From the NCBI GenBank assembly GCA_945877815.1, contig CAMDWJ010000018.1:1-64000 (forward strand): a DNA stretch of 64,000 nucleotides, given 5' to 3'. The DNA comes from Caenispirillum bisanense (GTDB taxonomy: Bacteria > Pseudomonadota > Alphaproteobacteria > Rhodospirillales > UBA2165). Under the pieces are notes generated by a model. It had not been told where the DNA came from and ran no database searches. It saw only the letters and a list, made by a program, of their open reading frames with translations. Made by a program: the position numbers and the translations under genes. This document shows positions 31,982-34,438 of the stretch, piece by piece (positions within the stretch are counted from its first letter, which is position 1; every line of letters begins with the position of its first letter).

Positions 31982-32055
31982 AGCTCGGCTTTCCCAAACC
32001 GATATGAAATAATCGCCACCCACGCAAAAGAGTGGCGAACAAAGGCGGACGGAAC

Positions 32056-32868
32056 GTGGACGCGGAAACAAGGTCGATCAAGATTCACGGCGCAGCCGAC
32101 TTCGCCGCCATGCGCCGAGCCGGACGGCTCGCTGCGGAAACGCTCGATTACATCACCCCGTTCGTGGTGCCGGGCGTGACGACCGGCGAGCTTGACCGCC
32201 TATGCGCCGAATTCGTCGATCAGCGTGGTGCCCGCTCCGGCCCGCTCAACTATCGCGGCTTCCCGAAATCGATCTGCACCTCGGTCAATCACGTGGTGTG
32301 TCACGGCATTCCGGGCGAAAAGATTCTGGTAGAGGGCGACGTCGTGAATATCGACGTCACGCCCGTTCTCGACGGCTGGCACGGCGACACCTCGCGTATG
32401 TTTCCGGTGGGCGCAGTCAGCGTCAAAGTCGAACGCCTTGTCGACGTGACCTACGACGCCATGATGTGCGGCATCGCCGCCATCAAGCCGGGGGCCACGG
32501 TCGGCGATATCGGCCATGCCATCGAAACTTTCGTGCGCCCGTTCCGCTATTCCGTCGTGCGCGATTTCTGTGGCCACGGCGTCGGACGCATTTTCCACGA
32601 TGCCCCCAATATCTTGCATTTCGGCCGGCCAGGCGAAGGCCCCGTGCTGCGCGCCGGCATGTTCTTCACCGTGGAGCCGATGATCAATATCGGCCGGCCC
32701 GAAGTGAAAATCCTGTCCGACGGCTGGACCGCAGTTACCAAGGATCGCTCGCTGTCGGCGCAGTTCGAACACACCATCGGCGTGACCGAGGACGGCTGCG
32801 AGATATTCACCACCTCGCCCGCCGGATTGGACAAGCCGCCCTACGGCGCCAAACCCGCGAGAGATTGA
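32056..32868 (+). CDS. map: Methionine aminopeptidase, type I
   Basis: 270 aa from GTG 32056. GTG 32032 is also in frame, but 32056 has AGGCGG upstream at suitable spacing and matches the family start. Removes N-terminal Met. The five metal ligands are visible: Asp in NIDVTP, Asp in GDTSRMF, His in CGHGVG, Glu in FTVEPM and Glu in QFEHTIG. His in VVCHGIP is the substrate-binding residue. Convergent on the toxin-antitoxin genes, with 41 bases between. Confidence 0.96.
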   Translation: MDAETRSIKIHGAADFAAMRRAGRLAAETLDYITPFVVPGVTTGELDRLCAEFVDQRGARSGPLNYRGFPKSICTSVNHVVCHGIPGEKILVEGDVVNIDVTPVLDGWHGDTSRMFPVGAVSVKVERLVDVTYDAMMCGIAAIKPGATVGDIGHAIETFVRPFRYSVVRDFCGHGVGRIFHDAPNILHFGRPGEGPVLRAGMFFTVEPMINIGRPEVKILSDGWTAVTKDRSLSAQFEHTIGVTEDGCEIFTTSPAGLDKPPYGAKPARD

Positions 32869-32909: not shown

Positions 32910-33347
32910 TCAATTGTCGCAAGAAATGATCCGCCCCGCACGTGCCTTCTGTCGAGCGAGAATCCCATCGCGCAATTTCTCGAACAAGGTGCGCGGCAAC
33001 ATGCCGTAATCGTATCGGCTTGGTTCGCCCGGAATGGGCCGCAAATCGTATCCAGGCCAAGCGAGGCGATTGAATTCATCGAGACGGAGCCAATGCCGGC
33101 CGCTGTCCAAGCCGAGCGATTTGCACGTCGCGGCCGGAATTTCGATGGATGCCGTCGGATCTTCGGGCGGCCAGCGCGTGATCGGAGCGACGATGGTGTC
33201 GATGTCGCCGGATGGATCACGATGCGCAGCGACAACAACGGCGCAGGGGCGATCCTTGGAGCTCTCGCTCGCCCCTTCCGCTTCTTCGTTGCTCCATAAA
33301 AAACTGTAACGGATCACCAAGCCCGGTTTCGGGATAGGGAGATTCAT
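32910..33347 (-). CDS. Putative PemK/MazF-like toxin of a type II toxin-antitoxin pair
   Basis: 145 aa. An N-terminal strand KPGLVIRYSF is followed by KDRPCAVVVA and IVAPITRWPP, the order seen in PemK/MazF/CcdB-fold toxins (GDIV, RPalV, vPiT). The C-terminal half is longer than in MazF. Its ATG overlaps the antitoxin stop (ATGA), the normal antitoxin-first arrangement. The likely activity is mRNA cleavage, but residues for catalysis cannot be assigned with confidence. The module sits between map and radC. Confidence 0.7.
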   Translation of the reverse strand: MNLPIPKPGLVIRYSFLWSNEEAEGASESSKDRPCAVVVAAHRDPSGDIDTIVAPITRWPPEDPTASIEIPAATCKSLGLDSGRHWLRLDEFNRLAWPGYDLRPIPGEPSRYDYGMLPRTLFEKLRDGILARQKARAGRIISCDN

Positions 33348-33598
33348 TTAGGCTCGGCGCCGTACTCCACCGTCTCAATCGCCGCAACCACGTCGTTCGG
33401 AAGATCGCCCACGACGAGCGATTGCCTTTCCCGGCGCTTGAGTAGTTCGTAGTGCGCCGCTTCGCTCGCCGAAAGATAGGCCCCAATCACCCTTCCATGG
33501 CTGGTCACACGAATGATCTTCTCCGCTATGGCCTCTTCGCGATAGCGTGCGAAATTCCGGGAAAACTCAGTCGCGGGGACGTCGCGGTTCTGTACCAT
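33344..33598 (-). CDS. Phd/YefM-like antitoxin
   Basis: 84 aa from ATG 33598, chosen because AAGGAG (33610-33605) lies 6 bases upstream. The frame is open to 33640, but that stretch is the promoter and operator. VPATEFSRNFARYREEA..IIRVTSHGRVIGAYLSA matches the Phd/YefM N-terminal DNA-binding fold. The C-terminus (about 50-84) is the expected toxin-binding tail. It likely represses its own operon through the inverted repeat at 33619-33636. Pairing with a PemK-like rather than RelE/Doc-like toxin is unusual. Confidence 0.75.
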   Translation of the reverse strand: MVQNRDVPATEFSRNFARYREEAIAEKIIRVTSHGRVIGAYLSASEAAHYELLKRRERQSLVVGDLPNDVVAAIETVEYGAEPK

Positions 33599-33618
33599 GC
33601 TAGGCTCCTTATGACTGC

Positions 33619-33636
33619 GTAAAATACGAATTTTAC
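33619..33636. promoter_or_regulatory. Operator-like perfect inverted repeat of the toxin-antitoxin operon
   Basis: Perfect 7-base arms GTAAAAT and ATTTTAC separated by ACGA, located 21 bases before the antitoxin ATG. It covers the predicted -10 element, so binding would block transcription, as expected for antitoxin autorepression. Confidence 0.65.
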
Positions 33637-33648
33637 ACATTTTATCAA
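33621..33648 (-). promoter_or_regulatory. Candidate promoter of the toxin-antitoxin operon
   Basis: Minus strand TTGATA (33648-33643) and TATTTT (33626-33621) separated by 16 bases, directly overlapping the inverted repeat. The region is AT-rich compared with its surroundings. Confidence 0.5.
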
Positions 33649-33736
33649 GGATTCGCCCCGCAACCGGGCCTCCCGTCGGATCGGCGCGCGCGAGGCGGGG
33701 TACCCTGAACCCGAATGCCGATGCTAAGGTTTAGCA

Positions 33737-34438
33737 ATGGCGAAAAGCGAACCCGACGACAAGGAAAGGCCGGATCATCTCGGCCATCGCGAGCGGCTCC
33801 GCGAACGGTTTCTGGCCGGCGGAGCAGACGCTCTTCCCGATTACGAGATGCTCGAATTGCTCCTGTTCATGGCGCAGCCTCGGCGCGACATGAAGCCCGT
33901 CGCCAAACGCCTGATGACGCGCTTCGGCACCTACGCCAAGGTCATCAGCGCATCGTCCGACGAACTGCGCACTGTCGAGGGCGTCGGCGAATCCCTCATC
34001 GCCACATTGAAGATCGTGCGCGACGCGGCGGTGCGGCTCGCCCGACACGAACTCACCCAACGTAATATCATCTCCTCATGGGAAGACTTAATCGGGTATT
34101 GCCGCGCGACCATGGGGCGCGAGAACGTCGAACAATTCCGCATCTTCTTCCTCGACCGCAAAAACGCGCTGATCAAGGACGAGGAGCTGCAGCGCGGCAC
34201 GGTCGATCAAACGGCCGTCTATCCGCGCGAAGTAATCAAACGCGCGCTTGAATTACACGCCAGCGCGATCATCATGGCGCACAACCATCCGTCGGGCGAC
34301 ACCACGCCGTCGCGCGGCGATATCGAGATGACGCGACTGGTCAAGGAAGCCTGCGAAAAGATCGGCATCGCCTTGCACGATCACGTCATCATATCGGCGG
34401 CGGGGGCGACAAGCTTCCGTTCGCTTGGACTTATATAA
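33737..34438 (+). CDS. radC: RadC family JAB1/MPN metalloprotein
   Basis: 233 aa. N-terminal helix-hairpin-helix (ELRTVEGVGESLIATL) and C-terminal JAMM motif with His-x-His in MAHNHPSGDTTPSRGD. Named RadC, although a direct repair role is disputed; many copies travel with mobile DNA. It is followed 15 bases later by the glutathione S-transferase-like gene. Divergent from the toxin-antitoxin operon. Confidence 0.93.
   Translation: MAKSEPDDKERPDHLGHRERLRERFLAGGADALPDYEMLELLLFMAQPRRDMKPVAKRLMTRFGTYAKVISASSDELRTVEGVGESLIATLKIVRDAAVRLARHELTQRNIISSWEDLIGYCRATMGRENVEQFRIFFLDRKNALIKDEELQRGTVDQTAVYPREVIKRALELHASAIIMAHNHPSGDTTPSRGDIEMTRLVKEACEKIGIALHDHVIISAAGATSFRSLGLI

Follow-up and report, generated by a model that had tools for sequence, protein, structure and literature searches.

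A probable Phd-MazF toxin-antitoxin cassette with a periodic candidate operator between map and radC in Caenispirillum bisanense

The window analysed here is a stretch of 64,000 nucleotides from Caenispirillum bisanense (contig CAMDWJ010000018.1). Two overlapping genes on its minus strand lie between map (32032-32868, plus strand) and radC (33737-34438, plus strand), and the features of this locus are collected in Table 1. An earlier note on this DNA had described a two-gene unit with the antitoxin gene first, an ATGA overlap and an AAGGAG ahead of the antitoxin gene; both open reading frames and both motifs are present where it had placed them. The overlap may couple the translation of the two genes, and the ATGA-type offset is identical in 54 of the 101 paired loci of our locus survey. 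The antitoxin start codon at position 33598 stands six bases past the AAGGAG. A more distal ATG at 33640 would fall within the candidate operator described below, and an N-terminal extension of this kind is uncommon among the homologues. The start most likely lies at 33598 rather than at 33640, because the homologues are mostly about 84 amino acids long, the ribosome-binding site stands ahead of 33598 and the candidate operator occupies the interval from one ATG to the other. The locus had also been called an AT-rich patch, which holds for the promoter only (35% GC at 33600-33650), whereas both genes have 59% GC against 61% for the whole window. Both genes are under purifying selection, with NG86 dN/dS values of 0.127/0.598 for the toxin gene (window against L061) and 0.077/0.72 for the antitoxin gene (window against L063).

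Table 1. Positions in the window of the two genes and of the predicted regulatory features.
Feature	Position	Strand	Basis
Toxin gene, 145 aa, predicted MazF/PemK-superfamily endoribonuclease	32910..33347	-	weak Pfam PemK match, AlphaFold2 model, conserved R33/T57
Antitoxin gene, 84 aa, Phd/YefM family	33344..33598	-	Pfam PhdYeFM and fold matches
ATGA overlap of toxin start and antitoxin stop	33344..33347	-	read from sequence
Antitoxin ribosome-binding site AAGGAG	33605..33610	-	read from sequence
Candidate operator box 3, TACGCA	33616..33621	-	box-spacing analysis
Perfect 7-4-7 inverted repeat GTAAAAT-ACGA-ATTTTAC	33619..33636	.	read from sequence
Sigma-70-like promoter: -35 TTGATA (33643-33648), 16-bp spacer, -10 TATTTT (33621-33626)	33621..33648	-	inferred
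Candidate operator box 2, TTCGTA	33625..33630	-	box-spacing analysis
Candidate operator box 1, TGTGTA (relaxed TNCGNA)	33634..33639	-	box-spacing analysis

The antitoxin matches the Pfam PhdYeFM family (PF02604) with an E-value of 0.00079, a match that falls short of the cut-off, and 45 of 48 antitoxin relatives match the same family (best E-value 2.3e-13). An AlphaFold2 model of the antitoxin reached a pLDDT of 81.5. When this model was searched with Foldseek the first 28 matches were Phd/YefM-type antitoxins (for example 2a6q and 4zm2), every one of them with an E-value above 0.001. By profile and predicted fold the protein belongs to the Phd/YefM family, in agreement with the earlier assignment as a Phd-type antitoxin.

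The toxin also falls short of the Pfam threshold, with a match to the PemK toxin family (PF02452) at an E-value of 0.0054 and 17.4 bits, under the cut-off of 23.1. The profile searches proposed in the earlier note thus leave both window proteins below threshold but succeed for their relatives; 30 of 55 toxin relatives match PF02452 at an E-value of 0.01 or less, the best at 8.3e-7. Searches of PHROGs, NCBIfam and PADLOC with the toxin gave no useful match. A single-sequence search of the PDB with the toxin returned antibody chains and similar noise and nothing else, and the same search with one of its relatives (L119) also returned noise. An AlphaFold2 model built from a 55-sequence alignment had a pLDDT of 84.7 and a pTM of 0.79. 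Foldseek placed MazF structures at the top (best E-value 2.9e-3), and VIA-align superposed the model on MazF-mt3 with a Z-score of 11.8 and an rmsd of 2.3 A across 100 residues. All 50 matches listed by VIA-align were MazF/Kid toxins. The earlier note had proposed a PemK/MazF-like toxin and had asked whether structure prediction would place it outside the PemK/CcdB fold; the model lies in the MazF/Kid fold, and the proposal is further upheld by the VIA-align Z-score and by an arginine and threonine signature.

This signature consists of R33 and T57, which are invariant in 55 of 55 aligned sequences. Together with G25, E28 and P34 they form a set that is invariant or nearly so across the aligned members and that fits the MazF motifs G-x-E-(4)-RP and T. 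The five residues G25, E28, R33, P34 and T57 would correspond by motif to G18, E20, R25, P26 and T48 of MazF, an assignment of catalytic roles drawn from a weak profile alignment (E-value 0.6, in which the RP and T of MazF are aligned) and from motif spacing. Arg25 and Thr48 of MazF are catalytic (PMC7354611), and G18, E20, R25 and P26 are required for its activity (PMC8634880). The window toxin is accordingly a predicted RNA endonuclease.

MazF and CcdB have a fold in common. A barrel of this kind could act as a gyrase poison in the manner of CcdB instead of as an RNase, and the family does carry an invariant segment of its own, N-x-F-x-WPGxDLRP, in a C-terminal part outside the Pfam match. 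We regard CcdB-like action as improbable, given that the VIA-align matches listed are all MazF/Kid and that the residues of the MazF catalytic motif are invariant. CcdB is absent from the structural matches listed for the toxin, an absence that in itself proves nothing.

The window copy of the toxin departs from its relatives at three columns whose conservation among 54 relatives is 95% or more (H58R, F95L and R143C; the mean for a member is 0.67), and these changes might weaken it. The same cassette could then be a chromosomal remnant in early decay, its toxin already weakened or inactive. Three unique changes at near-invariant columns, one of them (H58R) adjoining the catalytic T57, are what this reading would predict, and the toxin dN/dS of 0.21 between the window and L061 exceeds the 0.11 found for both L061-L063 and L061-L062. 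The frame is nevertheless full length and every catalytic-motif residue is retained, the overall dN/dS is far under 1, the candidate operator is intact, and two other members (L138 and L139) deviate equally. We therefore consider decay a possibility, though a rather unlikely one.

The pairing of the two genes is conserved. A Phd-like open reading frame lies directly upstream of the toxin gene in 101 of 102 surveyed loci, the sole exception (L062) being truncated at a contig end. The identity matrices of toxins and antitoxins are correlated (r 0.80), far beyond the maximum of 0.12 reached in 1000 permutations. The Phd-MazF pairing is thus a conserved subfamily. The suggestion of a mixed-pair subfamily in the earlier note is right in this respect, but the subfamily itself had been described before (PMC2701414, PMC10194956). 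Sub-threshold Pfam scores for both proteins are what one would expect from chance open reading frames or from a regulator pair other than a toxin-antitoxin system. This explanation is contradicted by the conserved pairing and the purifying selection, as well as by the predicted folds and the conservation of the operator, and we give it almost no weight.

Of the 289 genomes of the class, 28 carry homologues. Homologues are likewise found at 333 or more genome loci, on 25 viral contigs and on 263 plasmid records, among which 150 are predicted to be conjugative. The family is found mostly in Alphaproteobacteria and is frequent on Rhizobiaceae plasmids. It also occurs in Gamma- and Betaproteobacteria, in Methylobacter, Methylovulum, Steroidobacteraceae, Sulfuritalea and Variovorax. 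Our literature search found no experiment demonstrating toxicity or RNA cleavage for a family member, and this widespread and often plasmid-borne family has seemingly had no biochemical test of any member in the literature searched.

Makarova et al. (2009) recognised 'MazF-PHD', typified by SMa0917, as a fourth toxin group of PHD antitoxins, of alphaproteobacterial distribution, and rated it as plasmid-enriched with 12 on plasmids and 7 on chromosomes (PMC2701414). The window pair resembles this family in having a Phd-family antitoxin beside a MazF-superfamily toxin, in its occurrence in Alphaproteobacteria and in its enrichment on plasmids; it differs in that the window toxin belongs to another subgroup and that the family as surveyed here extends to Gamma- and Betaproteobacteria. 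The only homologue of the window toxin on pSymA lies at 509972-510235 and is 33% identical over 87 residues (E-value 1e-8). From its map position and the gene numbering this locus is likely to be SMa0917. In Sinorhizobium meliloti 1021 the toxin-like frame at this locus (L031 19973-20233, NC_003037) contains an in-frame TAG.

A second described system is PapA/PapT of the S. meliloti plasmid pSmeLPU88b (2023), in which a Phd antitoxin is followed by a PemK-like toxin (PMC10194956). Its activity was inferred by the authors only from the slower growth of plasmid-replication mutants (PMC10194956). The gene order is that of the window pair, with the Phd antitoxin first and the PemK-like toxin second, but PapA/PapT is plasmid-borne and adjoins repABC. 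The S. meliloti accessory plasmid NZ_CP021826 has a PapAT-like layout (repC, integrase, Phd, PemK), and its toxin is 41% identical to that of the window, a value that refers to this corresponding locus, carried by a different S. meliloti plasmid, and not to PapT.

With MazEF, PemIK and Kis-Kid the window pair shares the predicted toxin fold and the catalytic motif. The antitoxins of those systems are AbrB-like whereas that of the window is Phd-like, and the window toxin is about 30 amino acids longer, with the extra invariant WPGxDLRP region. YefM-YoeB and Axe-Txe have an antitoxin of the Phd/YefM fold and hexamer palindromes over the promoter, as the window pair does; the window toxin, however, does not have the RelE fold. 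In Phd-Doc the toxin has the Fic/Doc fold, unlike the window toxin, whose model and profile match MazF/PemK. The Phd-MazF pairing is already described (PMC2701414, PMC10194956) and the window pair is a further member. What is new here is the size and breadth of the family, the structural support, the box-array candidate operator and the insertion between map and radC. Mixed pairings of this sort reveal recombination of toxin and antitoxin folds.

The upstream regions of many relatives carry TTGACA at the position of the window -35. The perfect inverted repeat that the earlier note had seen over the promoter is present, and taken alone, as the best palindrome in 75 bp, it is marginal (shuffle p about 0.05). 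Its conservation among family members lifts it far above chance. The repeat is better read as the inner part of an array of three TNCGNA boxes at exact 9-bp steps, which overlie the promoter spacer and the -10. Among 82 non-redundant upstream regions, pairs of TNCGNA are separated by 9 bp in 41 cases, by 18 bp in 24 and by 27 bp in four, and no other distance up to 40 bp occurs more than once. Two strict boxes at a distance of 9 bp are found at 30 of the 82 loci, compared with one of 321 control segments of natural DNA farther upstream and with a mean of 0.1 (maximum 4) in shuffles that preserve base composition only. With relaxed boxes two are present at 54 of the 82 loci (controls 5 of 321) and three at 32 (controls 0 of 321). 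A simple palindromic operator was also considered and was rejected, since the quality of the palindrome differs widely among loci and the box spacing is constant.

Exact strict three-box sites number six in the 289 genomes. Two of these lie upstream of Phd-MazF pairs (in G003 and G274) and four lie elsewhere, so the pattern is enriched at Phd-MazF loci rather than diagnostic of them. The core of the YefM operator is TGTACA, repeated with its centres 12 bp apart (PMC7730913), in contrast to the 9-bp steps of the TNCGNA boxes. We lean slightly towards the view that Phd antitoxins paired with MazF-type toxins have an operator code of their own, distinct from that of YefM, in which two to four TNCGNA boxes, fixed at 9-bp steps over the promoter, would line up antitoxin dimers along the DNA, and that these pairs form a separate toxin-antitoxin lineage across several classes of Proteobacteria. 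A description of a 9-bp TNCGNA array was not found in the literature searched, which is no proof of absence. So sharply periodic a candidate operator offers a direct and cheap way into how Phd antitoxins read DNA.

In relatives with both genes, no more than about 160 bp separates the aligned ends of map and radC. A genome of the same genus (G289) has a gap of about 40 bp between them and no toxin homologue. In another genome of the same taxonomic family (G292, locus L038 on G292:C47) an unrelated sulfotransferase-like gene occupies the map-radC junction, which may be a recurrent insertion spot. One of 18 other genomes searched in the host's taxonomic family has a toxin homologue, which is 44% identical, whereas toxins with about 80% identity are found in MAGs of other Alphaproteobacteria and in one Rhodospirillaceae MAG. 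These observations are best explained by a cassette that arrived through horizontal transfer and was inserted between map and radC. For the host genome the pair would be an ordinary mobile cassette.

Taking together the operon structure, the folds, the conserved catalytic motif, the conserved box array and the horizontal spread, all of them obtained by computation, we consider it very probable that the locus is a horizontally acquired cassette, a type II toxin-antitoxin pair that belongs with the Phd-MazF systems (SMa0917/PapAT-like), whose MazF-fold toxin would act as an RNase and which would repress itself through the box array. The Phd-like antitoxin would be made first from the overlapping operon. 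Its Phd/YefM-type N-terminal part would form a DNA-binding dimer, and its C-terminal segment would neutralise the toxin. Antitoxin dimers, probably together with the toxin, would bind the 9-bp TNCGNA array over the spacer and the -10 and so repress their own operon. If the antitoxin is labile, its loss would free the toxin. On plasmids the pair may serve as an addiction module; in the window contig, where its neighbours are housekeeping genes, the most likely reading is a cassette that is selfish or serves a stress response.

The same genome (G000) carries a second Phd-MazF pair (G000:C14:22594-23010; L029, L187), whose toxin is 48% identical and which has three boxes of its own, so that both Phd-MazF loci of the genome carry the 9-bp box array. 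Three further Phd genes of the genome, each followed by a PIN gene as judged by reading the downstream frame rather than by profile, have no boxes at 9-bp distance upstream. A perfect three-box TNCGNA array at 9-bp steps is also found at G000:C14:80382-80405 (L175), with no toxin-antitoxin gene recognised alongside it. A canonical MazF is encoded elsewhere in the genome (L190, G000:C29:11733-12032) and matches PF02452 with an E-value of 7e-21.
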